Below, piece after piece: positions 2 through 31,930 of a DNA stretch of 51,497 bases. The stretch comes from Nitrospinales bacterium (GTDB lineage Bacteria > Nitrospinota_A > UBA7883 > JACRGQ01). Each line of letters starts with the position of its first letter. The first letter of the stretch is position 1. The stretch lies in NCBI GenBank assembly GCA_023248495.1, contig JAHFEK010000017.1, positions 1-51,497 on the forward strand, in the 5' to 3' direction. The position numbers were made by a program, and so were the translations under genes. A model generated the notes under the pieces. The model searched no databases, was not told the origin of the DNA, and saw nothing but the letters and a program-made list of their open reading frames with translations.

Positions 2-562
2 GAGGATCTCGATCTGGTTCCTATCAGCGATTACAACAAGACGAAGATGATCAGTGAGCGCGTACTGCTCAGCTACAAAGACAAGATCAACATCTTGTGC
101 ATCCGCCCGGCGACGGTGTGCGGCTATTCACCACGGATGCGCCTCGACGTATCGGTGAATATGCTCACCATGCAGGCCTTGAAGAACAAGCGGATCACCG
201 TGTTCGGCGGCGACCAGACGCGGCCCAATATCCACATTAAGGATATGGTCGGGGTGTATATGCATTTTCTTGCCAACGGGACGAAACATGAAGGGGTGTT
301 CAACGCCGGGTTCGAGAATATTTCGATCCTCGACATAGCGAACAAGGTGGCCCTGCGCATTCCGTCGGAAGTCGTGGTAAGCGAGTCGAACGATCCCCGG
401 TCATACCGGTTGAATTCCGACAAGCTTCTCGCTACCGGTTTTAAGCAAAAATACTGTATTGATGACGCGATCACGGAAATAATGGAGGCCTACGCAAGCA
501 AGGTGTTGACCGATGAGGAAGTCCATTACAACCTGAAAGTGATGAAAAAACTGAACGTCTGA
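2..562 (+). CDS. NAD-dependent sugar epimerase/dehydratase, C-terminal part (5' truncated by window)
   Basis: The frame is open at the left edge, so the start lies outside the window; 186 residues are visible. It is the C-terminal part of an extended short-chain dehydrogenase acting on nucleotide sugars. The active-site YxxxK is seen as YNKTK (tyrosine at bases 32-34, lysine at 44-46). It is followed by RPATVCGYSP and RPNIHIKDM, the family segments that shape the sugar-nucleotide pocket. The N-terminal NAD-binding glycine motif is not in view. The exact reaction (4-epimerase, 4,6-dehydratase or reductase) cannot be told from this part. It ends 31 bases before a methyltransferase, at the head of a packed glycan operon, which suggests it makes a sugar-nucleotide precursor. 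Confidence 0.85.
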   Translation, partial: EDLDLVPISDYNKTKMISERVLLSYKDKINILCIRPATVCGYSPRMRLDVSVNMLTMQALKNKRITVFGGDQTRPNIHIKDMVGVYMHFLANGTKHEGVFNAGFENISILDIANKVALRIPSEVVVSESNDPRSYRLNSDKLLATGFKQKYCIDDAITEIMEAYASKVLTDEEVHYNLKVMKKLNV

Positions 563-593: not shown

Positions 594-1253
594 ATGGGAC
601 GTGAAATAGACCTTTTAGAGAACTATCCAAAGGCCAAGCGCAACGTGGACGAGCGCGGGCAGACCAAAACCGAGGAGGATCGGGCGATTGCCCGGCGTTT
701 CGGCAAGGAATTCTTCGATGGCGACCGGCGGCATGGGTATGGCGGGTTTTCGTATCAGTCCCGGTTTTGGCAGCCGGTCATCCCCACCTTCCAGCGGCAT
801 TTTGGCCTGACGGAGAAAAGTTCGGTGCTGGACATCGGCTGCGGGAAGGGGTTCATGCTGCACGACATGGCGGCGCTCATCCCGGGCATCACCGTCGCGG
901 GGTTGGATATATCGCAGTACGCCATCGAGAAGGCCATGGAAGACATGAAGCCGTATGTCCGCGTGGGGGACGCCCGGTCGCTCCCCTTCCCGGATAAAAC
1001 GTTTGACGCGGTCATTTGCATTAATACCGTCCATAACCTCGAGCGGGAGGAATGCGGCAAAGCGTTACGGGAAATCGAGCGCGTGAGCCGGGGCGGCAGT
1101 TTTATTACGGTGGACGCCTACCGCACCGAGGAAGAAAAACGCCGCATGTACAATTGGAATCTGACGGCAAAAACCATAATGTCGGTGGATGAATGGGTCG
1201 CCTTTTTCCGTGAAGTCGGCTACACGGGCGATTACTTTTGGTTTATTCCTTAA
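594..1253 (+). CDS. Class I SAM-dependent methyltransferase
   Basis: A 219-residue cytoplasmic protein with one Rossmann-type methyltransferase domain. The SAM-binding glycine motif is DIGCGKG at residues 80-86. It is followed by an acidic strand end (GLDIS) and the motif II/III region DAVICINTVHNLE, typical of the Methyltransf_11 group. The first 75 residues are an extra charged segment without a recognised domain. The ATG at 594 is the first good start and has only a weak Shine-Dalgarno sequence. It sits 3 bases upstream of the E1-type alpha gene, so the two are probably co-translated. The substrate is unknown; the neighbours point to a sugar or sugar-nucleotide intermediate. O-, N- or C-methylation cannot be told apart from the sequence. 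Confidence 0.85.
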   Translation: MGREIDLLENYPKAKRNVDERGQTKTEEDRAIARRFGKEFFDGDRRHGYGGFSYQSRFWQPVIPTFQRHFGLTEKSSVLDIGCGKGFMLHDMAALIPGITVAGLDISQYAIEKAMEDMKPYVRVGDARSLPFPDKTFDAVICINTVHNLEREECGKALREIERVSRGGSFITVDAYRTEEEKRRMYNWNLTAKTIMSVDEWVAFFREVGYTGDYFWFIP

Positions 1254-1256
1254 ACG

Positions 1257-2273
1257 ATGAATCAGCGAAACCCTTCAGTCATCCCCGCCGGGTTGCCGTC
1301 CGGCGGCGCTCCGTCATCGCAGGCCAAGGCGCTTTTGTTCAGCATGAAGCGCATCCGCGCGGTGGAAGAGACCATCGCGAGCCGCTATAACGAACAGAAG
1401 ATGCGGTGTCCCACCCATCTTTCCATCGGGCAAGAGGGGATCGCCGCGGGCGTGGGCCTGGCTTTGAACCGCGATGATTTCATGATGAGCACCCATCGGG
1501 CGCACGCGCATTACCTCGCCAAAGGGGGCAATCTGCCGGCGATGATAGCCGAAATATACGGAAAAGTGACGGGTTGTTGCCGGGGAAAAGGCGGCTCCAT
1601 GCATCTGGTGGATGAAGAGGCGGGGTTTATGGGAAGCACGGCGATTGTGGGGAACACCATACCGGTCGCCGTGGGGCTGGGGCTTTCGATCAAGCTGCGC
1701 AACACAAACCAGGTCAGTTGCGTTTTCTTCGGCGATGGGGCGACGGAGGAAGGGGTTTTTTACGAATCCGTTTCTTTTGCGGCGCTGAAAAAGCTGCCGG
1801 TTCTTTTTATATGCGAAAACAACTTTTATTCCGTGTACTCGCCGTTGCGCGTCCGGCAGCCGGAAGGGCGCAAGATACACCAACTTGCCGGTTCTCTGGG
1901 GCTGCCCGCTTCGCACGGCGATGGGAATGACGCGGTACGGGTTTATGATATGGCGCGGCGCGCGGTGGACGGGATACGGCGGGGAGCCGGGCCGCAATTC
2001 CTTGAGTTTACCACGTACCGCTGGCGCGAACACTGCGGCCCCAACTTCGACAACGACATCGGATACCGCACCGAGGATGAATACCTTGCGTGGAAAAAGC
2101 GCGACCCGATAGTCATGCTGCAAGAGTCCCTTCTTGGCGATGGGCGCGCCACGCGGGAGGAATTGGATGGCATGGCGGCAACGGCGCAGGCGGAGGTTGA
2201 TGGCGCATTCGCCTTTGCCGGGCAATCCCCTTTCCCCGACCCATCCGAAGCGTATACCGGAGTATTCAAGTGA
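1257..2273 (+). CDS. Thiamine-diphosphate-dependent dehydrogenase E1, alpha subunit-like
   Basis: A 338-residue protein of the 2-oxo-acid dehydrogenase E1 alpha family (pyruvate/acetoin dehydrogenase type). The TPP-Mg binding motif begins with GDG at residues 159-161 and ends at ENN, residues 187-189. The usual STHRAHAHYLAKGG and CRGKGGSMH segments before it are present. Length fits an alpha subunit. It is followed by its beta partner with a 1-base stop/start overlap (TGATG). No lipoyl E2 or E3 gene is seen in the window, so it may not feed an oxidative complex. In this context I infer that it moves a two-carbon unit derived from a 2-oxo acid onto a keto sugar, or makes an acyloin. That is a proposal; an acetoin or pyruvate dehydrogenase role is the alternative. 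Confidence 0.85.
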   Translation: MNQRNPSVIPAGLPSGGAPSSQAKALLFSMKRIRAVEETIASRYNEQKMRCPTHLSIGQEGIAAGVGLALNRDDFMMSTHRAHAHYLAKGGNLPAMIAEIYGKVTGCCRGKGGSMHLVDEEAGFMGSTAIVGNTIPVAVGLGLSIKLRNTNQVSCVFFGDGATEEGVFYESVSFAALKKLPVLFICENNFYSVYSPLRVRQPEGRKIHQLAGSLGLPASHGDGNDAVRVYDMARRAVDGIRRGAGPQFLEFTTYRWREHCGPNFDNDIGYRTEDEYLAWKKRDPIVMLQESLLGDGRATREELDGMAATAQAEVDGAFAFAGQSPFPDPSEAYTGVFK

Positions 2274-3328
2274 TGCGCTCCATCAGTTTTGCCCAAGCGA
2301 TCAACGAAGCGCTGAGCGAGGCGATGCGGCAGGATGAGCGTGTCATCTGCTATGGCCTTGGGGTGGACGACCCGAAAGGGGTGTTCGGGACGACATTGGG
2401 GCTGCAAGAAAAATTCGGTGACCACCGCGTTTTTGATATGCCCACGGCGGAAAACGCGATGACCGGCGTGGCTATTGGCGCCTCGCTAAACGGTATCCGC
2501 CCGGTGATGACCCATCAGCGGCTGGATTTTTTCCTCCTGGCGATGGATCAACTGGTCAACAACGCCGCCAAGTGGCATTATATGTTCGGCGGGCGTCGTT
2601 CCGTGCCGATCACCATCAGGCTGATACTCGGCCGGGGTTGGGGGCAAGGCCCCACGCATTCGCAAAATTTGCAGGCGTGGTTTGCGCATATTCCCGGCCT
2701 AAAGGTTGTTATGCCCACCACGGCGGAGGACGCCAAAGGGCTGCTGCTCTCCAGTATTTTTGATGAAAATCCCGTGGTGTTTCTGGAGCATCGGTGGCTG
2801 CATAACGTGCAAGGACATGTGCCGGAGGGGGATTTCCGCATCCCCATTGGCAAGGCCCACGTGGTGCGCGAGGGCGCGGATGTCACCATCGTTTCGATGT
2901 CGTATATGACGATCGAGGCGCTGCACGCGATGGAGTTTTTGGAAAAAAACGGGGTGTCATGCGAGTTGGTGGACTTGCGCACGGTAAGCCCGCTGGATTG
3001 GGATACGGTTTTTAATTCCGTGAAAAAAACGGGCCGGTTGTTGGCGCTGGATACGGGATCCGCCACCGGTTCGGTGGCTGGTGAGATCGTTGCGCGGGTG
3101 TCGATGGGTTTGTGGAGCAGCCTCAAACAGGCGCCCCGGCGGCTGGCAATGCCGGATTTTCCAGAGCCGACCAGTCCGGCGCTGACCCAGGGCTTTCATG
3201 TGCGGGCGGAACATATCGCCCGCGAAGTGGCGGAAATGTTGGGGAAAGCGATCGACCATGGGCAAATCGCCGCGCAACGCAAGCATCCCCACGATGTTCC
3301 CGGTAATTGGTTCAATGGGCCGTTTTGA
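2273..3328 (+). CDS. Thiamine-diphosphate-dependent dehydrogenase E1, beta subunit-like
   Basis: A 351-residue transketolase-like pyrimidine-binding protein that pairs with the preceding alpha-like subunit. The activating glutamate of TPP enzymes lies in MPTAENAMTGVAIGAS near residue 62. The C-terminal transketolase C domain is recognisable from ADVTIVSMSYM and VELVDLRTVSPLDWD-like segments. The ATG at 2273 overlaps the alpha stop codon; a GTG one codon upstream at 2270 is the alternative and is closer to the GGAG at 2259-2262. The C-terminus (DVPGNWFNGPF) extends past the usual family end. Alpha and beta are almost certainly co-translated and form a heterotetramer. The substrate is unknown, as for the alpha subunit. 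Confidence 0.85.
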   Translation: MRSISFAQAINEALSEAMRQDERVICYGLGVDDPKGVFGTTLGLQEKFGDHRVFDMPTAENAMTGVAIGASLNGIRPVMTHQRLDFFLLAMDQLVNNAAKWHYMFGGRRSVPITIRLILGRGWGQGPTHSQNLQAWFAHIPGLKVVMPTTAEDAKGLLLSSIFDENPVVFLEHRWLHNVQGHVPEGDFRIPIGKAHVVREGADVTIVSMSYMTIEALHAMEFLEKNGVSCELVDLRTVSPLDWDTVFNSVKKTGRLLALDTGSATGSVAGEIVARVSMGLWSSLKQAPRRLAMPDFPEPTSPALTQGFHVRAEHIAREVAEMLGKAIDHGQIAAQRKHPHDVPGNWFNGPF

Positions 3329-3333
3329 CCCCT

Positions 3334-3352
3334 GGGGAAGCATAACTTCCCC
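3334..3352 (+). other. Stem-loop after the E1 beta gene
   Basis: GGGGAAG (3334-3340) and CTTCCCC (3346-3352) form a perfect 7-bp stem with a 5-base loop, six bases after the beta stop codon. No T-run follows, so a factor-independent terminator is not supported. It could protect the upstream message or attenuate. Confidence 0.35.
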
Positions 3353-3388
3353 CACTATTAATCAACGCTATTTTGCGCGGGAGCGAAA

Positions 3389-4579
3389 GTGAACATAACC
3401 AGAACACTGAACGATTCATGCTCGGTATGCGGCAATACGGATTTGCCGATTGTCATGGATCTGCCGCGGTTCCCCATCACCGGCGTGTACGTGGCGAAGC
3501 GGGAGCCGGAGCGTTTTCCCGATATGGATCAGGCCTTGTTATTTTGCCGGGAATGCAGCCACGCGCAACTTCAATATGTGATCGATCCAAACTACCTGTA
3601 CGACAAGACGTACACGCATCGAAGCTCCGCCAGCCCCATTGCAACCAGCGGCAATGATTTTTTCATCGGGTTTCTCAATACCGTAGTCGGCGGGAAGACC
3701 TTTGAGAGGATACTGGAAATAGGCTGCAACAACCTTTATTTGCTGAAAAAGATCAAAGACAGGGGGCATCGGCTGTTGGGCGTCGATCCAATCTGGGCGG
3801 GAAACGATCAAAAGGTGGATGGGAATATTTCAGTCGCCGGGAAATTCATCGAAGACGTGGATATCCAGGGGGAATTGGGTGGACGGCCGGACTTGATTTT
3901 GGCTATTCACACATTTGAGCATGTGCATAGGCCGAAGGAGCAGCTCCAGAAGGTTGTGGACGCGGCGGCTCCCGGGGCGGTCATCATGATTGAGGTTCCA
4001 TGCTTTGATTCATTGCTCTATGCGGGCCGGTTTGACCAGGTGTTCCACCAGCATTTGCAGTATTTCAGCCTCTCTTCGATGTTAAGAATGATTCAGGAAC
4101 TCGGATGCGAGTACCTTTCCCACGCCTTTAACTACAGCTATTGGCGCGGCACATTGCTCGTGGCCTTCAAAAAAGGTGATGTCAGCGGCGCGGGAGCGGC
4201 TGTCCCGGCCAAGCGGTATACCGGGGACATGGTGCGCCAGCGATACGGTTTGTTTCAACGGCAATTGGCCGTGTTCACGGAAGGCCTGGCGCGCACGGAA
4301 GGGGTGCTGTATGGGTTTGGCGCCGCTCAAATGGTTCCAACGCTTGCCTATCATATGCAAAGCGATCTTTCGTTTCTCCAATGCATCCTGGACGATAATC
4401 CCGATAGGCATGACCTTATGTATCCCAATCTTCCCGTGCGGATAAAGAAACCAAAAGAGGATATGGATCTGAGCGGCGCAAGCGTCGTCATCACCGCTTT
4501 GGATAGCATGAGGCCGATACTGGGAAGGCTTATCGGGGCGCGCGCCAAGGAAATCCTTGTGCCCGTGCAGTCATTTTAA
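3389..4579 (+). CDS. Sugar C-methyltransferase-type protein (zinc-binding N-domain, SAM domain, C-terminal domain)
   Basis: A 396-residue protein with the three-part layout of TylC3-like sugar C-methyltransferases. An N-terminal zinc-binding domain has C11/C14 and C53/C56. A SAM-binding domain has LEIGCN at residues 109-114 and the motif HTFEHVHRP. The C-terminal Rossmann-like domain begins near GVLYGFGAAQMVPTLAY. Known members methylate a carbon of 4-keto-6-deoxy sugar nucleotides. The start is GTG at 3389, with GGGAG at 3379-3383 as ribosome site. It follows the E1 pair after a 60-base gap and precedes a short-chain dehydrogenase. I infer that it methylates a keto-sugar intermediate in this locus. 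A related but non-sugar substrate cannot be excluded. Confidence 0.85.
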   Translation: MNITRTLNDSCSVCGNTDLPIVMDLPRFPITGVYVAKREPERFPDMDQALLFCRECSHAQLQYVIDPNYLYDKTYTHRSSASPIATSGNDFFIGFLNTVVGGKTFERILEIGCNNLYLLKKIKDRGHRLLGVDPIWAGNDQKVDGNISVAGKFIEDVDIQGELGGRPDLILAIHTFEHVHRPKEQLQKVVDAAAPGAVIMIEVPCFDSLLYAGRFDQVFHQHLQYFSLSSMLRMIQELGCEYLSHAFNYSYWRGTLLVAFKKGDVSGAGAAVPAKRYTGDMVRQRYGLFQRQLAVFTEGLARTEGVLYGFGAAQMVPTLAYHMQSDLSFLQCILDDNPDRHDLMYPNLPVRIKKPKEDMDLSGASVVITALDSMRPILGRLIGARAKEILVPVQSF

Positions 4580-4614
4580 GTGAACTAATTCCTATCTTTT
4601 AAGGGAGTCTCATT

Positions 4615-5388
4615 ATGGATTTGGGTATTTCAGGACGCCGCGCCCTTGTAACGGGCGCGGGACGCGGGCTGGGAAGGGCGATAGCGCAAGGCCTTGCGCA
4701 AGAAGGGGTCAAGGTCGTTTGCGTATCGCGTACCAAGGCGGATATCGACGAATTGATCGGGAGCATCGGCGGCGCGGCGGCGGGCCATTTGGGCATTGCC
4801 ATGGACTTGGTGCCCGAGGGCGCGCCAGCGGAGTTGATGGGGAAAATAGCGGCTTTCGGGCCGCTCGATATTGTCGTCCATAACGCGGGCGGCACGCTGG
4901 ATATTACCAACCCCTTTTGTTCCATTGAAGATTGGCGAAAGGTGTACCGGTTCAATTTCGAGATGGCGGTGGAACTCAATGGCATGATTGTGCCGGGCAT
5001 GCAGCAGCGGAAATGGGGCCGCGTGTGCCACATTTCTTCGATTTCGGCGATGGAGAACCATGGCCCGGTAACCTACTGCGCGATGAAAGCGGCGTTGACC
5101 GCATACACGCGCAGCATGGGCGGGGTGGTGGCGCCCGATGGCGTGGTCGTTTCGGCTATTTTGCCGGGCGCGGTTTTTACGGAAGGCGGATATTGGGATC
5201 AGACATTGCGCGAACGCCCCGAACATGTCCGCAAATACCTGACCGAACGCCAACGCATAGGCCGTTTCGGCAGACCGGAGGAGATCGCTAATTTTGTGGT
5301 ATACATATGCTCTGAATTGGCCTCTTTCAATATTGGAAGCATCGTTCCGGTTGATGGCGGACAAGGCAGAGGCTATTTTGGGCAATAA
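4615..5388 (+). CDS. Short-chain dehydrogenase/reductase (SDR) 1
   Basis: A 257-residue classical SDR. The cofactor motif is TGAGRGLG at residues 13-20, NAG lies at 90-92, and the catalytic tyrosine and lysine are Y154 and K158 (YCAMK), with serines at 141-144 before them. The C-terminus PVDGGQGRGYFG is typical. The start at 4615 has AAGGGAG about 8 bases upstream. It is followed 24 bases later by the split transketolase genes. An NAD(P)H-dependent carbonyl reductase or alcohol dehydrogenase role is certain at family level. The substrate is not known; it may reduce the ketone left by the neighbouring TPP-dependent carbon-carbon bond formation. Confidence 0.88.
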   Translation: MDLGISGRRALVTGAGRGLGRAIAQGLAQEGVKVVCVSRTKADIDELIGSIGGAAAGHLGIAMDLVPEGAPAELMGKIAAFGPLDIVVHNAGGTLDITNPFCSIEDWRKVYRFNFEMAVELNGMIVPGMQQRKWGRVCHISSISAMENHGPVTYCAMKAALTAYTRSMGGVVAPDGVVVSAILPGAVFTEGGYWDQTLRERPEHVRKYLTERQRIGRFGRPEEIANFVVYICSELASFNIGSIVPVDGGQGRGYFGQ

Positions 5389-5412
5389 TATTGGGGAGGA
5401 ATGGGCTTACAC

Positions 5413-6192
5413 ATGGTGTTAAATAAAGCAATTCGCCGCCGCATAGTGGATATGACGGTCGAAGGAAGAGACGGCCATATCCCAAGCGCGTTTTCTATCG
5501 TGGACATCATCAACTACTTGTTCAGCCATGTATTGAAGTTTGATGCTAAAAATCCCAAATGGGCTGACCGCGATTATTTTATCCTTAGCAAGGGACATGG
5601 TTGTCTCGCCCTTTATCCCGTGTTGCACGAAAAGGGATTCATTACCGATAATGACATAAAATTATTTTGCAAGGCTGGCGGAATACTGGGGGAACATCCG
5701 GATTTCACCAAAGTTCCGGGGGCTGAGGCTTCAACGGGGTCGTTGGGGCATGGTTTGCCGTTTGGCACGGGTATCGCCCTTGGGCACCGCATAAAAGGCA
5801 TGTCAAACCGGATTTTTATCCTGGTGGGTGACGGGGAATGTCACGAGGGATCGGTGTGGGAAGCCGCCAATGTCGGCAGGAACCAGAAACTTGGCAACCT
5901 CTGCGTCATCGTGGATTGGAACAGCTCCGCGGCGCAACTCATGCCTTTCGACAACCTTTCCGAAAAATGGGCAGCCTTCGGATGGAATGTCCAAGTGGTG
6001 GACGGACACTCCGAGGAGGAGTTGGGGAAAGCGGTCCGCGCCATCGAATTCCAGTCTGTTGGCGTCCCGTCGGTGATCCTGGCAAAGACGGTTAAAGGGA
6101 AGGGTGTTCCCCTGCTTGAAGGACACGGACCTTGGCACCATCGCATTCCGAATGCCGAGGAATACAAAGCAATTATGGAGGCCTTGTCTTGA
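5413..6192 (+). CDS. Transketolase, N-terminal (TPP/Mg-binding) subunit
   Basis: A roughly 259-residue protein equal to the first third of a full transketolase. It has the family GH-rich start region (GRDGHIPSAFSIVDIINYL), the SLGHGLPFGTGIALG segment, and the TPP-Mg motif from GDGECHEGSVWEA to DWN. The partner half is the next gene. An ATG at 5401 directly abuts the GGAGGA at 5395-5400, leaving no spacing; the in-frame ATG at 5413, 13 bases beyond the GGAGG, is therefore preferred, though not certain. Split transketolases occur in archaea and in secondary metabolism. Here I infer transfer of a two-carbon ketol unit to make or rearrange a sugar of the surface glycan; a pentose-phosphate role is less likely given the neighbours. 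Confidence 0.88.
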   Translation: MVLNKAIRRRIVDMTVEGRDGHIPSAFSIVDIINYLFSHVLKFDAKNPKWADRDYFILSKGHGCLALYPVLHEKGFITDNDIKLFCKAGGILGEHPDFTKVPGAEASTGSLGHGLPFGTGIALGHRIKGMSNRIFILVGDGECHEGSVWEAANVGRNQKLGNLCVIVDWNSSAAQLMPFDNLSEKWAAFGWNVQVVDGHSEEELGKAVRAIEFQSVGVPSVILAKTVKGKGVPLLEGHGPWHHRIPNAEEYKAIMEALS

Positions 6193-7118
6193 CAGCGAAA
6201 AAAATAAGAAACCAGTTTGCCGATACCATGCTGGAAATCGGCAAAAACGATCCTGACCTGGTCGTGATGGTCGGCGACATCAGTCATGGGATATTGCAAA
6301 CCTTTGCCAAGGCCTGTCCGGGCCGCTACTATAACGTCGGCATCTGCGAGGCGGAAATAATCAGCATGGCGGCGGGCATGGCCAGCATCGGGCTGTACCC
6401 GGTCGCGCATACCATCGCGCCGTTCCTTCTCGAGCGGGCGTATGAGCAGATCAAGCTCGATTTCTGCTACCACGGGCTGCACGGGAATATCGTGACGGTG
6501 GGCGGCACCTTTGATTATTCCAACCTGGGGGTGACGCACCATTGCTATTGTGATTTCGCATTGATCAAATCATTGCCAAATACCCAATACCTTTTTCCGG
6601 GCACCGCGCAGGAATTCGACATTTTGTTCAAGCAGGCATACCGGAATGAACTTCTGACCGTCTACCGGGTGCCGGAACATCCCCACATGCAGGAGATTTC
6701 CGCGTCGGCCATAAAGGTCGGCAAGGGCGTCAAGATCGCCGATGGAAAGGATCTGACGATTGTCGTGACGGGGACGCAGCTAAAACATGCGGTGGAAGCC
6801 AAGAAGGCGCTCTCGGCCGGCGGGTGGGATGTTGAGATAATCTACATTCATTCCATACGGCCCTTTGATGCCGAAATGGTGCGGGAGAGCGTCCAAAAAA
6901 CACGCCGGGTGCTGGTGGTTGAAGAACACAATGTGGTGGGCGGGTTGAATGAGGATGTGCTGCGGGCGGTATATAACGTCCGCGATGTTCAGTTCCATGC
7001 ACAGGGATTGCGGTCGTTCGTTCATTCATACGGCTCATATAATGACCTCTGTGAATCCGTGGGCCTTTCGCCAAACGGCATAGTGCGCAGCGTTCAAGAA
7101 CATTTTAAAAAGGGATAA
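6189..7118 (+). CDS. Transketolase, C-terminal (pyrimidine-binding) subunit
   Basis: A 309-residue partner of the preceding gene, covering the Pyr and C-terminal domains of transketolase. NVGICEAEIISMAAGMA holds the glutamate that activates thiamine. The C-domain carries VVEEHNVVGGLNEDV. The most likely start is TTG at 6189: it overlaps the previous stop codon as TTGA and has GGAGG at 6178-6182, six bases upstream. An earlier in-frame ATG at 6132 would overlap the upstream gene by 61 bases and adds an unrelated leader. Translational coupling with the N-subunit is strongly suggested. The two chains should form the active enzyme at a shared TPP site. Confidence 0.88.
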   Translation: MTAKKIRNQFADTMLEIGKNDPDLVVMVGDISHGILQTFAKACPGRYYNVGICEAEIISMAAGMASIGLYPVAHTIAPFLLERAYEQIKLDFCYHGLHGNIVTVGGTFDYSNLGVTHHCYCDFALIKSLPNTQYLFPGTAQEFDILFKQAYRNELLTVYRVPEHPHMQEISASAIKVGKGVKIADGKDLTIVVTGTQLKHAVEAKKALSAGGWDVEIIYIHSIRPFDAEMVRESVQKTRRVLVVEEHNVVGGLNEDVLRAVYNVRDVQFHAQGLRSFVHSYGSYNDLCESVGLSPNGIVRSVQEHFKKG

Positions 7119-7123
7119 GGGCT

Positions 7124-7804
7124 ATGTCCAAGAAGGCAAATGAACCGCAGAATCAGGTACAATTCGACACCTATTATCAAAAAGGCGGCGTGGTGCTGGG
7201 GCCTTATTCGACCCACATAGCCAATCATGACCCAAAACATCTTGTTTTTTTGCTTTCACGATACAAGTTCTGCAGCAAAATGCTTGAGGGCAAGGCCAAG
7301 GTTCTGGAGGTGGGGTGCGGGGATTCGTTTGGAACGGCGATTACGTTGCAGACCGTGTCGAGTGTGCTCTGCATCGACATTGAACCTTTGGTTATAGAAG
7401 ATAACAAGAACCGGAAGTTGTATGATGGACGGGCAACTTTTGCGGTGCATGATATTACAACGGGCCCGGCCGGCGCTGGCCGGTTTGACGCGGCATATTC
7501 CCTGGATGTCATCGAACATATTCCCGCCGACCGTGAGCATTTGTATTTTGAGAATATCTGCAAGTCGCTGGTGGATGATGGTATTTTCATCATGGGAACC
7601 CCCAATATTACGTCGAATCAATATGCGTCCGAGGGAAGCCGGCTCGGCCACATCAACCTGAAATCGCATGTGACGATGCGTGAAGGTATGGGCAGGTTTT
7701 TCAAAAATGTGTTTATTTTTTCGATGAATGATGAAGTCGTGCATACCGGTTTTGGCCCGATGGCGAACTATCTTTTGGGGGTTGGCGTGGGAGTCAAGCG
7801 GTGA
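7124..7804 (+). CDS. Class I SAM-dependent methyltransferase
   Basis: A 226-residue methyltransferase. The SAM motif is LEVGCGDSFG near residues 63-72, followed by CIDIEP and the motif SLDVIEHIPADREH, typical of the Methyltransf_23/UbiG-like group. The start ATG at 7124 has AAGGG upstream. The gene lies five bases after the transketolase pair and overlaps the next gene by 4 bases (GTGA), so it is in the same transcription unit. The substrate is unknown; small-molecule or sugar O-methylation is inferred from context. No membrane segment or extra domain is seen. Confidence 0.82.
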   Translation: MSKKANEPQNQVQFDTYYQKGGVVLGPYSTHIANHDPKHLVFLLSRYKFCSKMLEGKAKVLEVGCGDSFGTAITLQTVSSVLCIDIEPLVIEDNKNRKLYDGRATFAVHDITTGPAGAGRFDAAYSLDVIEHIPADREHLYFENICKSLVDDGIFIMGTPNITSNQYASEGSRLGHINLKSHVTMREGMGRFFKNVFIFSMNDEVVHTGFGPMANYLLGVGVGVKR

Positions 7805-8730
7805 GCGTTCGCCCACGCAAGATAATAGGTGTTTGGGACATTAACGCGGCACCGCTAAAACTTGGCTTTCTGATTATTTTCCTTGAAGAGCTTCTTCAGC
7901 TTTGCAAGAAACATGGCGGATCGGCTGACATCGCTTTTGTGAAATCGCGCGATGCAATCGATTATTCATTTATTGGCGCAGTGGTTTCTTTTTTCCCGCG
8001 GTTGTCATCGCTGTATATATTTGAAACCGCCGCTGAACTGGATGCTTTCCTGGCTTGGAAGGGAGATGCTTACGAAAAGTGGCCGTTGAACGCAGAAATT
8101 GCCCGGACCAGTTGGCACGGAAGCACCTTGAGCATTCAGGAATTTTGCCGCGCCGGCGGATCGCTTGTTGGGCTTCAGGGGAACAATGCGGTGCTAAAGG
8201 AAACATTGGCGTTCATGGATGGCCATCTGGATGGAGCGCTTCCGGTGGTGTTGCATCTGAAGAACAGTACAGTGGATGTGCAAAGCAACGCGGTTATCGA
8301 TAGCTGGTGCGCCTTGTTCAAGCATTGTGCCGAGGCCGGCCTTCCGGTCAAGTTCCTTTTAATAGCAGATGACCCGGTTGATCCCCGCTGCCTTTGCGCG
8401 CCCAATGTAATAAGGGTCGGAGACTTCCGGAGTTCCCTTTCGTTGTACCTCGGTCTCATTGAGCATGCTTTTATCTTCATGGGAATGTCGAGCGGGCCAT
8501 GTAACATGGCGCTGCTTTCCAACGTCCCGTATATTATTATCAAGCATCCAGACCACCATCCGGAAGAAATGGAGCGTGAGCTGCGGGGGAATGAAAATTT
8601 CCCTTTTGCCGGGCGGCGGCAGAGATTCATTCGGAAGGTTGAAACGCCCGAGTTGCTGATTGGCGAGTTTGAACGGATATATAATTCACATGATGCCGAT
8701 TCCTGGCGAAAGCAACGGCATGCACACTGA
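7801..8730 (+). CDS. Unrecognised GT-B-like protein, paralogue A (shortest of three)
   Basis: A 309-residue protein I do not recognise by name. It shares with the proteins at 10465-11577 and 17550-18746 an N-terminal WD motif (IIGVWD, W12-D13), the segment DGALPVVLHLKNS, and a C-terminal block IFMGMSSGPCNMALLSNVPYIII. That last block resembles the end of GT-B glycosyltransferases, where a small-residue loop binds the donor phosphate before a VPYI strand. It lacks the central ARDY-LD-LP segment present in the other two. The start is GTG at 7801, overlapping the upstream stop as GTGA. A glycosyltransferase or another sugar-handling function is inferred only from the C-terminal pattern and the locus. 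Confidence 0.6.
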   Translation: MSVRPRKIIGVWDINAAPLKLGFLIIFLEELLQLCKKHGGSADIAFVKSRDAIDYSFIGAVVSFFPRLSSLYIFETAAELDAFLAWKGDAYEKWPLNAEIARTSWHGSTLSIQEFCRAGGSLVGLQGNNAVLKETLAFMDGHLDGALPVVLHLKNSTVDVQSNAVIDSWCALFKHCAEAGLPVKFLLIADDPVDPRCLCAPNVIRVGDFRSSLSLYLGLIEHAFIFMGMSSGPCNMALLSNVPYIIIKHPDHHPEEMERELRGNENFPFAGRRQRFIRKVETPELLIGEFERIYNSHDADSWRKQRHAH

Positions 8731-9538
8731 TTTCCTTTCGTACCGGGACCGCGTGGTGATTGTTACCGGCTCCGGCAGAGGCATTGGGAAGGTGATAGCC
8801 GGCCAATTTGCCGCGTTCGGCGCGCAGGTTATCATTGCGGACAGGGATGCCGAGCGCTCTCAGGAAACGGCCCGTCAAATTGTACAAAATGGCGGCCGCG
8901 CGGAATACCATCCCCTCGACCTTGCCAACCTTGACCAATTTGAACCATACCTGGCAATGATTATCGCCAAATACGGGAAAGTGAGCGTATTGGTCAATAA
9001 CGCCCGGGCGGGCGGCAGAACCGGATTTTTGGGGGAAACCGCCGAGAATTGGGAAAAGGTGCTTGATGTTTCCCTGCGGGCTTCGCTGTTCCTGTCCCAA
9101 GCTTTTATAAAATGCGTTTCAAAGGAGATGTTGCCCGCGAGCATTCTCAACATTTCATCCGTATCGAGCACCTTGGTGTCAACGGAGTCCGCCGCCTACC
9201 ATGCGGGAAAGGCCGCATTGGAAAACTTGACGCGTTATCTCGCGGCGGCCGGCGGACCCCGGGGTGTCAGGGTCAATGGAGTGCGGTTGGGGTTCATCGT
9301 TCAGGATGAGCATCAAGAGCGTTTTTATAGTGAGGGCAACCGGGAATATCGGCAGTTGGCCGAATTAACCCATCCTCTTGGCCGCGTTGGGTCATCGCGG
9401 GATGTTGCCGATGCCGCATTGTTCCTCTGCTCCGAGAGGGCCTTGTTTATTAATGGTGAAAACATCGTGGTGGATGGCGGGTTCTCGACCCAGGATCCAT
9501 TCGTGTTGCTGATGAAACATGTGAAAAAATCGACATGA
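8720..9538 (+). CDS. Short-chain dehydrogenase/reductase (SDR) 2
   Basis: A 272-residue classical SDR. It has the cofactor motif TGSGRGIG at residues 16-23, S147, and Y160-K164 (YHAGK). The usual NNAG is NNAR here (residues 93-96), an uncommon change next to the cofactor. The C-terminus has the family pattern NGENIVVDGGFS. ATG 8720 overlaps the upstream gene by 11 bases and gives a normal N-terminus; an ATG at 8690 would add ten residues. Neither has a strong ribosome site. It overlaps the next SDR by 4 bases, so the two are translationally coupled and may act on consecutive intermediates. Confidence 0.82.
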   Translation: MHTDFLSYRDRVVIVTGSGRGIGKVIAGQFAAFGAQVIIADRDAERSQETARQIVQNGGRAEYHPLDLANLDQFEPYLAMIIAKYGKVSVLVNNARAGGRTGFLGETAENWEKVLDVSLRASLFLSQAFIKCVSKEMLPASILNISSVSSTLVSTESAAYHAGKAALENLTRYLAAAGGPRGVRVNGVRLGFIVQDEHQERFYSEGNREYRQLAELTHPLGRVGSSRDVADAALFLCSERALFINGENIVVDGGFSTQDPFVLLMKHVKKST

Positions 9539-10338
9539 ATCTCTCGCTTGAAGGTAATCGGTATATTGTAACGGGCGCCAGCAAGGGCCTTGGAAAGGCT
9601 TTAACCCTTGGTTTGTTGCTTGAGGGGGCGATGGTAACCGCATGCGCGAGGAACGCCAGCGGGCTGCGGGACGCATTTTCAAATCATGCGCTCTATGAAA
9701 AGCGGTTGTTTACTTGCGCGGCGGATGTGGGCAAAGAGGATGAGGTTGGGCAGTGTGTTGACTATGCCGCGCGCATGATGGGCGGCGTTGACGGAATCAT
9801 TAATAACGCCGGAGGGGTGGAAAAATTCGGCGGATTGTTTGATCTCAATATATCTGACTGGATCAATACGTTCACGGTAAATGTGATGGGTCTTGCCCAT
9901 TTCAGCAAGGCCGGCCGGGAACATCTTACGAGGTCACCTTCCCCCAGGATCATCAATATTGCCTCGGTAACGGGGTTGCAGCCCGGTATTTTCAATCCGC
10001 ATTATTCGGCCAGCAAGGCGGCGGCGATCAATCTCGCCAAACACTTGGCCAATATATTCGCGGGTGATGGAATTTTGGTGAATACCGTTGTTGCCGGCAC
10101 TTTTGAAAGCCCGGCCTGGGAGAGGAATGTGCAACGGGTGTCACGGGAAAAAAATATAACGATTGAAGATGCCGCAAGCGAGGAAGGCCGGCTGGCGGCA
10201 AACTCCATCCCCTTGGGGCGCATTGGAACCGCCGACGATATCGTTCCCCTGGTGATTTTTCTTGCCTCCAGCCGTTCTTCATGGATTACGGGGGCCACCT
10301 TTACGATAGATGGCGGGAAAATGAGATGCATACATTAA
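9535..10338 (+). CDS. Short-chain dehydrogenase/reductase (SDR) 3
   Basis: A 267-residue classical SDR. TGASKGLG is at residues 13-20, NNAG at 90-93, and the catalytic set is S144, Y157 and K161 (YSASK). The C-terminus carries TGATFTIDGGK. The ATG at 9535 overlaps the preceding SDR stop codon (ATGA). It is the last gene before a 126-base gap holding a palindromic repeat. Like the other two SDRs it is an NAD(P)-dependent oxidoreductase of unknown substrate. Three SDRs beside two TPP enzyme pairs suggests several carbonyl reductions or oxidations on sugar intermediates. Confidence 0.88.
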   Translation: MNLSLEGNRYIVTGASKGLGKALTLGLLLEGAMVTACARNASGLRDAFSNHALYEKRLFTCAADVGKEDEVGQCVDYAARMMGGVDGIINNAGGVEKFGGLFDLNISDWINTFTVNVMGLAHFSKAGREHLTRSPSPRIINIASVTGLQPGIFNPHYSASKAAAINLAKHLANIFAGDGILVNTVVAGTFESPAWERNVQRVSREKNITIEDAASEEGRLAANSIPLGRIGTADDIVPLVIFLASSRSSWITGATFTIDGGKMRCIH

Positions 10339-10464: not shown

Positions 10465-11577
10465 ATGTGGATCGCCGCCACCGTATTGCAAAGCTTTTAC
10501 CGGGACACTGCACTAATGGATAGCTGGCATCTCTTGCGTTTGTTGTTCTCCCCGCAATCCCGCCGGGGGAAGAAATTACTGGCGATATGGGATTTAAAGT
10601 CGTTGCCATGGTCGGTTGGCGATTCCTTGGTTTTCATCGAAACGGTCAATGCGGTAAGAATTGAGCGAAACCATGACGCCTTTGATTTATGCATAATTTA
10701 TGATGACGGGTTTCCCGCGGGAAATAGAGGACGGGGCGCCCCGGGAAACCACCTGACCAGCGAAAATGCCAGGGATTATATTCTCGACCTGTTGCCGATG
10801 TTCAGCGGTGCCGAGGGCTTGGGATCCCTGTTTTTGTTTACTTCGAGGGATGAGTTCGACCGGTTTCTCCGAAACAACCTTTCCATGTATGACCTCTTTC
10901 CCTCATTGTATGGACTGCTTAGTGAAAAATACAATCTTGCCGGTGGCGGGGTCATGGGGGAATTGGTTGATTTTAAAAAAAAGAGGGGGTGGGTTCCTTC
11001 GCTGAGAGTGCCCGGGCGGAGCTTGGCGTGGGCATATGATTTTTACCGGAAAACCCTGCCTGACGGCGCCCTGCCGGTTGCCCTTTCCTTGAAAGTGTCG
11101 ATTCACGATCAACGGCGGAATGCGGATCCCGCCGCATGGCTGCCTTTTTTAGACCAGTGCAAAAAGGAATATCCCGAAGTGGTTTTTGTGGCATTGGGGT
11201 ATCGCGAGGAAAGGATGAAGGGGATAGAGGATCGGACGAACGTCGTTTTTGCCAGTGATTATGGGACTAATGTCATGGAGCAGATGGCGCTCATTGCAAC
11301 CTCTTGCTTGTATATGGTTGTCAACTCGGGACTTGCCGCATTTGGGTTGTTCGGGCCCGTGCCTTACCTGATGTATAACATGCACCCATCCCAAATGTTT
11401 TTTCATGTACCGTTCACCTCGGACACCAGGATCATCCATGACAATCGCAGGCTCATGACGCCGGAAGTGCTATTTGACGATTTCCGGCAACTATATGGCC
11501 GGATAGACCGCGGCGGTTGGTTTTCCACCGCCCTCCGGAAGGGGAAACCGCAGGATGCTTTTTCCGCGCACCTTTGA
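10465..11577 (+). CDS. Unrecognised GT-B-like protein, paralogue B
   Basis: A 370-residue protein of the same unnamed family as 7801-8730 and 17550-18746. Shared landmarks are LLAIWD (W42-D43), ENARDYILDLLP, the SRDEF segment followed by YDLFP, LAWAYDFYRKTLPDGALPV, and the C-terminal SDYGTNVMEQMALIATSCLY and VVNSGLAAFGLFGPVPYLM. The last block resembles the donor-site end of GT-B glycosyltransferases. ATG 10465 is the first start after the palindromic repeat; ATG 10516, 17 codons later, is also possible, and neither has a clear ribosome site. No membrane segment or signal peptide is seen. Function is unknown; transfer or modification of a surface sugar is an inference. Confidence 0.6.
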   Translation: MWIAATVLQSFYRDTALMDSWHLLRLLFSPQSRRGKKLLAIWDLKSLPWSVGDSLVFIETVNAVRIERNHDAFDLCIIYDDGFPAGNRGRGAPGNHLTSENARDYILDLLPMFSGAEGLGSLFLFTSRDEFDRFLRNNLSMYDLFPSLYGLLSEKYNLAGGGVMGELVDFKKKRGWVPSLRVPGRSLAWAYDFYRKTLPDGALPVALSLKVSIHDQRRNADPAAWLPFLDQCKKEYPEVVFVALGYREERMKGIEDRTNVVFASDYGTNVMEQMALIATSCLYMVVNSGLAAFGLFGPVPYLMYNMHPSQMFFHVPFTSDTRIIHDNRRLMTPEVLFDDFRQLYGRIDRGGWFSTALRKGKPQDAFSAHL

Positions 11578-14287: not shown

Positions 14288-15334
14288 ATGAAAGCGGCGG
14301 TATTGTACACATTGGGGCAGCCCTTGGTGATTGAAGACGGGATCGATATTCCCGCGCTCAAAAAAGGGCAGGTGCTGGTGAAAATGTTTTACAGCGGTTT
14401 GTGCCACAGCCAGTTGATGGAGATCAGCGGCAAACGCGGCGCCGACCCTTATCTGCCACACATGCTTGGGCACGAAGGGACGGGCGAAGTGGTGGACGTG
14501 GGTGAAGGCGTCCGAAAGGTGAAAGCGGGCGACCGCGTCATCCTTTGTTGGATAAAAGGGGACGGTTTGGACGGCGGCGGTTCAACCTATAACAAAGGAA
14601 CCCGCGTCATCAATGCGGGCGCCATCACCACCTTCAGCGAATACACGGTCGTTTCGGAGAACCGGTGCGTCGTGGCGCCGGAAGGGGTTCCGTTGGACAT
14701 CGGTGTCCTGTTCGGGTGCGCGATCCCCACGGGGGCGGGCATCATGATCAATACCGTGCAACCTAAACCGGGAAGCAGCATAGCCTTTGTCGGCCTGGGC
14801 GGCATCGGCTTGAGCGCGTTGCTGGCCGTCCGCCTTTTCAATTGCGCAACGGTGATTGCGGTGGATGTGGAGGATTCAAAACTGGAACTGGCGCGCCAAT
14901 TGGGCGCCACGCATACCATTAACAGCCGTGATTGCGATCCGCTGGCGGCCATCCGTGAAATAACCGGCGGGGTTGGCGTCGACTATAGCGTGGAGGCCGC
15001 CGGCCTTTCTCAAACGATAGAGCTTGCCTTTAACGCGGTTCGAAAAGGGGGCGGGCGCTGTGTGTTCGCCTCACATCCGAAAGCCGGGGAAAAGATTCAA
15101 CTGGATCCGCATGACCTGATATCCGGCAAGAGAATCGAGGGGAGTTGGGGCGGGGCCACCCATCCCGACCGTGATTTCCCTTTGTATGCCAAGCATTACC
15201 TCGCCGGGAACTTTCCTTTGCAGTTGTTCATGGGGAAACGGTATTCCCTGGATGCCATAAATCAGGCATTGGATGACCTTGAAAACAGAAGGGTGATTCG
15301 TGCTATTATCGACATCGCGGTGCCCAAATCATGA
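14288..15334 (+). CDS. Zinc-type medium-chain alcohol dehydrogenase-like protein
   Basis: A 348-residue medium-chain dehydrogenase. Catalytic zinc ligands are visible at C39, H62-E63 (GHE) and C144. The NAD(P) motif is GLGGIG at residues 169-174. The four closely spaced cysteines of the structural zinc lobe, expected near residues 90-110, are missing; that stretch reads KGDGLDGGGSTYNKGTR. The C-terminus is regular. It overlaps the next gene by 4 bases (ATGA), so it belongs with the cytidylyltransferase-kinase and nucleotidylyltransferase genes. An oxidoreductase acting on a sugar or polyol hydroxyl is likely. The substrate is unknown. Confidence 0.83.
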   Translation: MKAAVLYTLGQPLVIEDGIDIPALKKGQVLVKMFYSGLCHSQLMEISGKRGADPYLPHMLGHEGTGEVVDVGEGVRKVKAGDRVILCWIKGDGLDGGGSTYNKGTRVINAGAITTFSEYTVVSENRCVVAPEGVPLDIGVLFGCAIPTGAGIMINTVQPKPGSSIAFVGLGGIGLSALLAVRLFNCATVIAVDVEDSKLELARQLGATHTINSRDCDPLAAIREITGGVGVDYSVEAAGLSQTIELAFNAVRKGGGRCVFASHPKAGEKIQLDPHDLISGKRIEGSWGGATHPDRDFPLYAKHYLAGNFPLQLFMGKRYSLDAINQALDDLENRRVIRAIIDIAVPKS

Positions 15335-16824
15335 AACTTGATAAGAATTCCCTGGAAGCCTTGGAGCTGATCAAAGAAAAAGTGGTTCTGCGCGGCCGCG
15401 TGGTCTTTGTTTCCGGCACGTTCAACATTCTCCATCCCGGACACCTGCGCCTTTTGCGCTTTGCCGCGGAATGCGGCGATTACCTGGTGGTGGGGGTGTA
15501 TGCGAACCACAAGGCGCAAAACGCGGTGCTGGACGTGCAATTGCGGCTCGAGGCCATCCAGTCGGTCACATGGGTGAATTTCGCGTTCCCCCTCTACGAT
15601 TCGCCGGAGGATTTTATTTCCGTCCTCCGCCCCCTTGTGGTGGTGAAAGGGAAGGAGCATGAATCAGGCTATAATCCCGAGTTGCGGGCGCTGGAATCCT
15701 ACGGGGGCAAACTTCTTTTCAGTTCCGGCGATACGACGTTCTCGTCGCTGGAGCTTATCAAGAAGGAGATATCCAGCCTCAACTACGCGACCATCACCAA
15801 ACCCGCCGACTTCCCCAAGCGGCACAAATTTTCCATTACCGGACTGCACCAGGCGCTGGATGATATGCGGTCTTTGAAGGTCTGCGTCATCGGCGATACG
15901 ATCGTTGACGAATACATACAATGCGATCCGGTGGGCATGTCGCAGGAAGACCCCACGATAGTGGTGACGCCCATCGTTAGCGACCGGTTCATCGGCGGCG
16001 CGGCCATCGTGGCCGCACACGCATCCGGGTTGGGCGCGGCGCATGTGGAATTCATTTCCTTCGTGGGGGAGGATGGCATCGGGGATTTCGTCGGCAAGAA
16101 GCTTGGCGAGTTCGGCGTCCACGCGAAACTCATCGTTGACGAAAGCCGGCCCACCACATTGAAGCAGCGGTTCCGGGCGGGCAACAAAACCTTGTTGCGG
16201 GTTAACCATCTTCGCCAGCATAAAGTGCGGGGGGATATCCAAAGCAAGGTGCTGGAATATATAAAGTCGGTGCTGGACGGCATCGATCTGCTTATCTTCT
16301 CGGACTTCAATTACGGGGCGCTGCCGCAACCGATGGTCGAAACGATCATCGCCGAATGTCAGCGGCGGGGCATCATGATGGTGGCCGACAGCCAAAGTTC
16401 GTCCCAGGTGGGCGATATTTCCCGCTACCACGGAATGAAGCTGGTGACGCCCACCGAACGGGAAGCGCGCCTTGCGCTTTCGAACTATGAGGATGGCCTT
16501 GTGGTGCTCGCGGAACAACTGCGCAAAAAATCATCCACCGAGAATGTGGTTATTACACTCGGGGCCGAAGGGCTTTTGATTCACGCTCCCACCGGGGAAA
16601 AAGATGGCTGGATCACGGATACGCTTCCCGCCCTGAACCTTGCGCCGAAAGATACCGCCGGGGCGGGTGACAGTTTCCTCGTCAGCACCGCGATGGCAAT
16701 GAGGACCGGCCGGCCTATTTGGGAATGTGTCTACCTTGGGTCGCTTGCGGCGGCGTGTCAAGTGGGCCGGGTGGGAAATATCCCCCTCAAGCAGAATGAA
16801 CTCCGGGCGGAAATAGGTATTTGA
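15331..16824 (+). CDS. Bifunctional nucleotidylyltransferase-PfkB kinase, HldE-like with domains in reverse order
   Basis: A 497-residue fusion. Residues about 20-150 form a cytidylyltransferase-type domain with HPGH at 35-38 and VVKGKEH near 104-110. Residues about 180-490 form a PfkB/RfaE-type sugar kinase with VIGDTIVDEY, IGGAAIVAAHASGLG, and the catalytic DTAGAGD at 441-447. In the heptose enzyme HldE the kinase comes first; here the order is swapped. By analogy it phosphorylates a sugar phosphate and then activates it with a nucleotide. No gmhA or gmhB is seen nearby, so a heptose substrate is not proven. It overlaps its neighbours by 4 bases on both sides. Confidence 0.82.
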   Translation: MKLDKNSLEALELIKEKVVLRGRVVFVSGTFNILHPGHLRLLRFAAECGDYLVVGVYANHKAQNAVLDVQLRLEAIQSVTWVNFAFPLYDSPEDFISVLRPLVVVKGKEHESGYNPELRALESYGGKLLFSSGDTTFSSLELIKKEISSLNYATITKPADFPKRHKFSITGLHQALDDMRSLKVCVIGDTIVDEYIQCDPVGMSQEDPTIVVTPIVSDRFIGGAAIVAAHASGLGAAHVEFISFVGEDGIGDFVGKKLGEFGVHAKLIVDESRPTTLKQRFRAGNKTLLRVNHLRQHKVRGDIQSKVLEYIKSVLDGIDLLIFSDFNYGALPQPMVETIIAECQRRGIMMVADSQSSSQVGDISRYHGMKLVTPTEREARLALSNYEDGLVVLAEQLRKKSSTENVVITLGAEGLLIHAPTGEKDGWITDTLPALNLAPKDTAGAGDSFLVSTAMAMRTGRPIWECVYLGSLAAACQVGRVGNIPLKQNELRAEIGI

Positions 16825-17543
16825 AGGCGTTATTGCTGGCGGCCGGATTGGGAACGCGTCTGCGCCCGTTGACGAATAGCATCCCCAAATGTTTGGTGGA
16901 GATCAACGGCAGGCCCCTGCTTGATTATTGGGTATGCATGTTGAGCGAAGCGGGGGTTCGTCCGCTATTGGTCAATCTGCATTATATGCCGGATAAAGTG
17001 TCGGGGTACATTGATTCCAGCGGATACAAGAAATTCATAACGACGGTGACCGAACGCGAGCTGTTGGGAACGGCGGGAACGTTGCTCAAAAACCGGGCCT
17101 TTTTTGGGGAAGAGCCGGTCATGCTGGTTCACGCGGACAACCTCAGCAAGTTCGATGTGCATGCCTTCATTGATGCGCATCATCGCCGCCCGGCGGGGTG
17201 CGAGATCACAATGATGACGTTCAAAACACCCACGCCGCGGTCGTGCGGTATCGTTGAGATTGATGCCAGGGGCGTGGTAACCGGCTTCCATGAAAAAGTG
17301 CAAAACCCCCCTGGCGACCATGCCAACGGGGCGGTGTATATCGTCGAACCTTCCTTGTTTGGTTTTCTTCAAAGTCTCGGCAAGGAGGTTATCGATTTCA
17401 GCACGGAAGTGTTGCCGCATTATATCGGGCGGATTTCCACCTACCACAACGGCGTGTACCATCGGGATATTGGAACTATTGAGAGTCTTAACGCGGCGCA
17501 ATCGGAGTACGTTTTGGCGCTATCCGGCCGCGATAATTTATAG
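16821..17543 (+). CDS. Sugar-1-phosphate nucleotidylyltransferase
   Basis: A 240-residue NTP-transferase. The nucleotide signature LLAAGLGTRLRPLTNSIPKC is at the N-terminus, then EINGRPLLDYW. VHADNLSKFD carries the metal-binding aspartate. The length fits the short HddC/ManC-like guanylyltransferases without a C-terminal isomerase. The start is TTG at 16821, overlapping the upstream stop as TTGA. The partnership with the HldE-like fusion recalls GDP-heptose loci, in which HddA and HddC act together. The nucleotide and sugar are inferred, not seen. Confidence 0.85.
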   Translation: MKALLLAAGLGTRLRPLTNSIPKCLVEINGRPLLDYWVCMLSEAGVRPLLVNLHYMPDKVSGYIDSSGYKKFITTVTERELLGTAGTLLKNRAFFGEEPVMLVHADNLSKFDVHAFIDAHHRRPAGCEITMMTFKTPTPRSCGIVEIDARGVVTGFHEKVQNPPGDHANGAVYIVEPSLFGFLQSLGKEVIDFSTEVLPHYIGRISTYHNGVYHRDIGTIESLNAAQSEYVLALSGRDNL

Positions 17544-31924: not shown

Positions 31925-31930
31925 GCCACC

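Follow-up and report, generated by a model that had tools for sequence, protein, structure and literature searches.

A candidate operon for sugar branching with an E1-like pair and a split transketolase in a Nitrospinales bacterium

Why would a bacterium keep, within one surface-sugar operon, an alpha/beta pair that resembles the E1 component of 2-oxoacid dehydrogenase complexes and a transketolase split over two genes, both of which are thiamine diphosphate (ThDP) enzymes? The question is raised by a 51,497-nucleotide stretch of a Nitrospinales genome (contig JAHFEK010000017.1 of assembly GCA_023248495.1), the whole of which we call the window. An earlier note on this DNA had suggested a pathway that adds two-carbon (C2) branches to a nucleotide sugar or extends its chain, followed by reduction and methylation, and our genomic inference supports this in kind. 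We think it reasonably probable that the operon turns a nucleoside diphosphate (NDP) heptose into a sugar with a branch or a longer chain, using two ThDP carboligases that add C2 units. This reading is favored because the E1 pair belongs to a clade that occurs without E2, the transketolase active site is altered, 4-keto-forming short-chain dehydrogenases/reductases (SDRs) and NDP-heptose genes are present, and the arrangement recurs across phyla.

The source genome is a 2.57 Mb metagenome-assembled genome (MAG) that is 87.7% complete, and the window begins at the first base of its contig (C87), inside the cluster, so that the 5' end of the cluster is cut off. From 594 to 7804 the genes are spaced by -61 to +60 bp, where -61 bp corresponds to the longest start of the second transketolase gene and becomes -4 bp with the likelier start, probably TTG 6189. 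Because its genes overlap or lie at most 60 bp apart, 594-7804 looks like one operon, with the following members:

594..1253, + strand: S-adenosylmethionine-dependent methyltransferase MT1 (Methyltransf_25/11; gene cluster 3, in 12/15 compared loci)
1257..2273, + strand: ThDP E1-like alpha subunit (PF00676 E1_dh, 219 bits; loop EHCGPxxD replaces GHSMSDP)
2270..3328, + strand: ThDP E1-like beta subunit (Transket_pyr 118 bits, Transketolase_C 106 bits; C-terminal tail ending FNGPF)
3389..4579, + strand: putative sugar C-methyltransferase CMT, mycarose 3-C-methyltransferase/TcaB9-like (Methyltransf_13/23/14; PDB 4rv9, E=1.5e-21, and 4e2x)
4615..5388, + strand: SDR1 (adh_short; near TKN in most type I loci, defined below)
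5401..6192, + strand: TKN, the N-terminal ThDP-binding chain of the split transketolase (PF00456 Transketolase_N, 135 bits; PDB 6yak, E=2e-58)
6189..7118 (6132 as longest start), + strand: TKC, the C-terminal chain of the split transketolase (Transket_pyr 72 bits, Transketolase_C 85 bits; PDB 6yaj, E=1e-41; Glu at the Arg520 position)
7124..7804, + strand: methyltransferase MT2 (Methyltransf_11; often accompanies CMT, SDR1 and the transketolase)

Both ThDP pairs described in the earlier note are confirmed and intact by Pfam match, and no reading frame is broken. Its three SDRs (4615-5388, 8660-9538 and 9535-10338) and its C-methyltransferase (3389-4579, matching Methyltransf_13/23/14) are likewise confirmed. 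Its statement that the pairs lie four genes apart needs correction: only two genes, CMT and SDR1, separate them.

The E1-like pair

The pair retains the ThDP motif GDG...EN and, in alignment, the conserved Glu and His of E1-beta. In a tree, E1-alpha proteins of sister loci form a clade (support 99/99) apart from the E1-alpha proteins of pyruvate dehydrogenase (PDH), branched-chain and acetoin enzymes in the same genomes; the clade is defined by these sister proteins, with which the window protein is grouped by shared alignment signatures. The lipoyl-access loop, which reads GHSMSDPxxYR in enzymes of the PDH, branched-chain dehydrogenase and acetoin type (GHSxxDPxxYR), has become EHCGPxxDxxxxYR in this clade. 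The clade's E1-beta carries an MTHQRxDF motif and a C-terminal tail of 20-25 residues ending in FxGPF, which is of low confidence in a monomer structure model; the window pair does not have the extension-free E1-beta C-terminus of complex E1s.

Gene context points the same way. No E2 or E3 gene occurs among the window genes, as had been noted before, and a standard E2 partner elsewhere, which by the earlier note would have spoken against its proposal, was not found (PF00198) in the whole of the 87.7% complete source genome, while 10/14 control genomes have one. Within 10 kb, an E2 accompanies 0/38 loci of the E1 clade versus 8/10 control E1 loci in the same search (p=1e-7) and GmhA or HldE accompanies 26/38 versus 0/10 (p=1e-4), both values overstating independence since the 38 loci are related and include weaker clade members (L013, L119, L226-L230 in our locus numbering). 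No E3 lies within 10 kb of any of the 38. Based on the separate clade, the changed loop and tail and the lack of a nearby E2, we judge that the window pair is not the E1 of a 2-oxoacid dehydrogenase complex.

What might such a pair do instead? Keto-forming or epimerase-type SDRs lie near the E1 genes in 30/38 clade loci, and the characterized functional relatives, described below, act on ketones. Both observations speak against the very unlikely alternative that the pair adds a pyruvate-derived acetyl group to an aldehyde in the manner of DXS, thereby lengthening the sugar, as a straight-chain acyloin or 1-deoxyketose, rather than branching it. This alternative draws on the DXS and acetoin enzymes of the superfamily, which do such chemistry, and on a clade member in a Streptomyces cluster not concerned with sugars. 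The latter, from plasmid pSGRIFU1 of Streptomyces griseofuscus (L120), joins the E1 clade in the tree, and its pair sits in a natural-product cluster with condensation, ketosynthase and acyl carrier protein genes.

DegT aminotransferase genes come directly after the E1 pair on plasmids of Azospirillum and Solidesulfovibrio, and E1 pairs of the same or a neighboring clade lie near DegT aminotransferases, with no transketolase, at L118, L119, L121 and L227-L229. Kibdelomycin has a transaminated C2 branch (PMC12247030), and by analogy these DegT neighbors suggest an aminoethyl-type branch. In a woesearchaeon, E1-alpha and E1-beta are fused in a single frame of 686 residues (L019:3962-6022).

The split transketolase and the recurring cassette

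Scanning genome contigs with TKN gave 80 loci. Those at 50-69% TKN identity have E1 genes within 20 kb (E1-beta only at L020, on a short contig); L021, at 48% identity and also on a short contig, has no E1, nor do nearly all loci at 37-46%. The closest loci come from Nitrospirota, Chloroflexota, beta-, gamma- and alphaproteobacteria, Pelagibacteraceae, Lentisphaerota and one woesearchaeon. Clustering of their neighbors yields a recurrent set made up of E1-alpha, E1-beta, TKN, TKC, SDR1, MT1, an alcohol dehydrogenase (ADH), CMT, a 4,6-dehydratase-like SDR, a GmhA-like isomerase, a Cj1427-like SDR, an HldE-like protein and a nucleoside triphosphate (NTP) transferase. In a tree of 67 transketolases, a type I clade of 15 (support 100/98), to which the window pair belongs, has E1 nearby in 15/15 loci. 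Its sister, a type II clade of 13 (100/100), has heptose genes in 13/13 and E1 in 0/13. The association of E1 with the transketolase is not chance (15/15 versus 0/13; exact p about 3e-8, ignoring shared ancestry). One Nitrospirota locus, L143, holds the whole cassette in nearly the order of the window, including the run GmhA, 4,6-dehydratase, C4-dehydrogenase (C4DH), E1-alpha, E1-beta, and its GmhA and dehydratase sit just upstream of the point where the window is cut. The cassette is rare, with strong TKC matches in 1/369 gammaproteobacterial and 2/296 Nitrospirota genomes. More genomes have the E1 half: 6/369 and 12/296 of these, respectively, give a full-length E1-beta match of at least 500 bits. 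A phage collection gave generic transketolase matches only, at no more than 41% identity.

From their gene distribution, the E1 pair and the transketolase are best described as separable modules. This bears on whether they serve one product or two. The E1 pair could make a C2-branched heptose while the transketolase serves a different keto sugar of the same glycan locus, the two sharing a neighborhood and not a pathway; most E1 loci indeed have GmhA or HldE but no type I transketolase, type II transketolases occur without E1, and at L010 and L018 the E1 pair stands apart from the transketolase. Against this, all 15 type I loci have E1 nearby, usually contiguous and in distant phyla, and we consider two separate sugars rather unlikely.

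The cassette may feed more than one kind of surface glycan. The Wzz-like gene and GDP-fucose genes that the window also carries suggest that its product goes to a polysaccharide. In two Pseudoalteromonas genomes and Marisediminitalea (L232-L237 in genomes G030, G031 and G032), the cassette lies within the polar flagellar cluster, near flagellin and PseB/PseC/PseI-like genes, all called by reading the sequence. Given this proximity, it probably decorates flagellin there, as part of a flagellin glycosylation island.

Residues that contact substrate set the type I transketolases apart. Numbered by E. coli TktA, in 15 proteins that include L021 (just outside the type I clade) and leave L143 aside, positions H26, H66, H100, D155, E160, N185, H261, D381, E411 and H473 are kept in 15/15. 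Position 520 is Glu in 9/15, Lys once and never Arg, while Arg or Lys is kept in 59/62 other rows. S385 has become His in 14/15, H461 Gly in 15/15 and D469 Leu in 14/15, although other split transketolases likewise vary at H461 and D469. The window pair has His, Gly, Leu and Glu at S385, H461, D469 and R520 and retains R358 in the alignment. We take these four positions to be phosphate and C2-hydroxyl recognition residues, with Arg520 of TktA binding the substrate phosphate. Their alteration points to a non-phosphorylated acceptor or donor for the window enzyme.

The same residues bear on the idea that the transketolase merely supplies a ketose phosphate, sedoheptulose-7-phosphate or an analogue, to GmhA, leaving the E1 pair alone to branch the sugar. 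GmhA-type isomerases do start from sedoheptulose-7-phosphate, a transketolase product, and GmhA is present in sister clusters. But an acidic residue mostly takes the place of the lost Arg520, almost every row has Leu at D469, a housekeeping transketolase is encoded in the genome, and outside the type I set most loci with E1 and GmhA or HldE lack a transketolase. We therefore give this idea little credence.

Transket_pyr domains occur in four places in the source genome: two in the window, L001 and L004. At L001 a split transketolase adjoins coaD and keeps every checked TktA residue; we identify it from these features as the housekeeping enzyme and, since it keeps them all, the window pair as a paralogue. 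The third split pair, L004 (G000:C59), is also altered at the S385, H461 and D469 positions. The Transket_pyr search found no DXS-type protein in the source genome, which reflects either a gap in the MAG or a missing pathway.

Could the two pairs be ordinary enzymes that share a glycan locus by chance, the one an E1 of pyruvate or acetoin dehydrogenase and the other a transketolase of the pentose-phosphate pathway? Family-level annotation would say so, and TIGR03182 and PRK09212 match the window E1 genes, but below cut-offs. We reject this as largely refuted and give it almost no weight: there is no E2 in the genome or near the 38 relatives, a separate housekeeping transketolase (which speaks against the normal pentose-phosphate role that the earlier note had named as counting against its proposal) lies beside coaD, the active-site and tail changes are clade-specific, and the cassette is conserved across phyla.

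The heptose scaffold and the type II loci

Which sugar would be modified? The remaining genes that bear on this are:

2..562, + strand: 3' part of a Cj1427-like NAD-dependent sugar-nucleotide dehydrogenase/epimerase (best PDB match 6vo6, E=1.7e-20; 5' end lost at the contig start)
7801..8730, + strand: GT9-like (heptosyltransferase-fold) glycosyltransferase (no Pfam match; AlphaFold2 model, pLDDT 81; Foldseek 3tov and WaaC 2h1h)
8660..9538, + strand: SDR2 (adh_short_C2, 182 bits; true start probably downstream of the longest frame start)
9535..10338, + strand: SDR3 (adh_short, 141 bits)
14288..15334, + strand: zinc-dependent ADH (ADH_zinc_N/ADH_N; kept in type I and type II loci)
15331..16824, + strand: HldE-like heptose-7-phosphate kinase/nucleotidyltransferase with reversed domain order (TIGR02198 182 bits, TIGR02199 56 bits, below curated cut-offs)
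16821..17543, + strand: sugar-1-phosphate nucleotidyltransferase (NTP_transferase; mannose-1-phosphate guanylyltransferase, HddC and other matches, all below cut-offs)

The window thus carries candidates for a heptose kinase and nucleotidyltransferase (15331-16824 and 16821-17543), with matches below curated cut-offs. The window, cut off within the cluster by the contig start, has no GmhA or 4,6-dehydratase; the syntenic L143 has both, and those of the source genome presumably lie beyond the contig start. Full-length homologues of 2..562 occur in seven sister loci, the L013 copy matching 6vo6 with E=1.7e-36, and the model of 7801-8730 has GT9 3tov and WaaC 2h1h as its top Foldseek matches (E 1e-6, TM 0.5-0.6). 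We take 6vo6 to be Cj1427, a GDP-heptose C4-dehydrogenase. Since the HldE- and HddC-like proteins, GmhA in sister loci, the 6vo6 match and the GT9 fold all favor a heptose nucleotide, the scaffold is probably a nucleotide-heptose. In Campylobacter jejuni, GDP-heptose synthesis runs from sedoheptulose-7-phosphate through NDP-heptose to a 4-keto sugar made by a C4-dehydrogenase, Cj1427, or by a 4,6-dehydratase (PMC10680097).

The type II loci, with the order C4DH-GmhA-46DH-TK (46DH, 4,6-dehydratase; TK, transketolase) and no E1, may lead to a known sugar, bradyrhizose. This bicyclic sugar of 10 carbons is a product of photosynthetic bradyrhizobia, and as of 2016 the genes for its biosynthesis were stated to be unknown; disrupting a 4,6-dehydratase gene by insertion, within a cluster of 11 genes, abolished the O-antigen, although polar effects were not excluded (PMC4743980). 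In Bradyrhizobium the type II order HldE-NTP-C4DH-GmhA-46DH-TKN-TKC-ADH-MT1 is found in 6/6 loci read (L034 and L267-L271). Among 272 Bradyrhizobium genomes, 16 have the type II transketolase, 27 have reaction-centre genes and 10 have both (p=9e-8); in one reaction-centre subgroup, delimited post hoc by L/M frames of 314 residues, 10/11 genomes have the transketolase. The ring closures of bradyrhizose run through O-4, O-5 and O-9 (PMC9912281), and they fit a C9-C4 bond, as C2 addition at heptose C4 would give. The Bradyrhizobium type II operon is thus a candidate bradyrhizose cluster, and the C2 route to that sugar a proposal.

Elsewhere in the window, the proteins of 10465-11577 and 17550-18746 have no Pfam matches and both align with the GT9-like protein of 7801-8730. 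A DsbD-like gene at 31178-32974 is interrupted, between two stretches coding for membrane segments, by a TGA codon in frame (31922-31924), past which its frame continues.

The proposed pathway and known systems

Based on these data, we propose the following pathway. GmhA- and HldE-like enzymes and the nucleotidyltransferase would make an NDP-heptose, which the Cj1427-like dehydrogenase and/or the 4,6-dehydratase would convert to a keto sugar. The E2-free E1-alpha/beta pair would decarboxylate pyruvate and transfer the resulting C2 acyl anion to the ketone, as for AviB1/AviB2 and KbDH, and the split transketolase would move a C2 ketol unit from a donor to the carbonyl of a non-phosphorylated, probably nucleotide-linked acceptor. 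The SDRs could then reduce the new ketones, CMT and MT1/MT2 methylate the product and the GT9-like transferases attach it to a surface glycan. Both ThDP pairs appear to have been recruited from central metabolism. Gene content, conservation, the lack of an E2 and the residue changes are what we observe; the donor, the acceptor, the order of steps and the action of both pairs on one sugar are what we infer.

Some points weigh against this pathway. E1 loci without a transketolase are commoner than loci with both, which leaves room for two sugars, and the window cluster contains neither GmhA nor the 4,6-dehydratase, which the contig end has presumably cut off. The monomer model does not indicate a role for the FxGPF tail, docking included. 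A transketolase reaction on keto sugars has only been proposed in the literature, AviB1/AviB2 and KbDH are likened to the window pair by gene context and proposed chemistry, and the enzyme roles and final sugar of the type I loci are read from their genes. A bolder version, in which both pairs act in turn on one NDP-heptose to yield a surface sugar of C11-C12 that is doubly branched or carbocyclic, is speculative and we would not expect it to hold in full. It would make split transketolases a general tool for higher sugars, with type II clusters building bradyrhizose, an inositol-fused sugar of 10 carbons: the transketolase would add C2 to C4 of a keto-heptose, the ring would close through C7 and a single methyl group would be added (7+2+1 carbons).

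Beyond the earlier note, this analysis adds that the scaffold is probably a heptose, that the E1 half has functional relatives in antibiotic sugar pathways and that the enzymes are separable. If the proposal is true, ThDP carboligation on keto sugars reaches beyond the antibiotics of actinobacteria to surface glycans of cells from several phyla, flagellar glycosylation islands among them; the proposal would also provide sequence signatures for transketolases that may use non-phosphorylated sugars, and candidate genes for bradyrhizose. The enzymes could serve the synthesis of chiral tertiary alcohols, and the cassette's presence in several phyla and an archaeon points to a family of unusual cell-surface sugars.

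The earlier note knew of no described locus with both pairs, and our limited search of the literature on transketolase and E1 with O-antigen, flagellin and Pelagibacter islands likewise gave none. Each chemistry has a precedent (AviB1/B2, KbDH) or a proposal (split transketolases); their combination and the heptose scaffold appear to be undescribed. The closest parallels to the E1 pair are AviB1/AviB2, Pau11/Pau12 and KbDH-alpha/beta, the alphaKADH2 sugar-branching carboligases of antibiotic clusters, which take a C2 unit from pyruvate, with reduction or transamination following (PMC4425429, PMC12247030). They too are E2-free, PDH E1-like alpha/beta pairs beside NDP-keto-sugar genes, but the loci described here are surface-glycan loci of Gram-negatives and an archaeon, with a heptose scaffold and a split transketolase as partner. 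Split-gene transketolases have been proposed for miharamycin and amipurimycin, those listed in a review being all from Streptomycetes and unproven; the type I enzymes, in contrast, form their own clade, tied to E1 and heptose genes across phyla. The nearest solved structures are those of the Carboxydothermus split transketolase (6yak/6yaj), which shares the two-chain architecture, whereas the clade of the window pair has changed phosphate-site residues. YerE of yersiniose synthesis (O-antigen) likewise uses ThDP to build a C2 branch onto a surface-polysaccharide keto sugar, but it is a single-chain, decarboxylase-type flavoprotein unlike the two-chain pairs of the window; we rejected a YerE-like route, as no such Pfam domain (TPP_enzyme N/M/C) is present in the open reading frames scanned (bases 2-34731). 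Finally, the GDP-heptose capsule pathways of C. jejuni (GmhA, kinase, HddC, Cj1427, 4,6-dehydratase) share the route from sedoheptulose-7-phosphate to a 4-keto NDP-heptose, but their products are epimerized or deoxygenated heptoses and PMC10680097 mentions no transketolase, setting them apart from the C2 additions proposed here.

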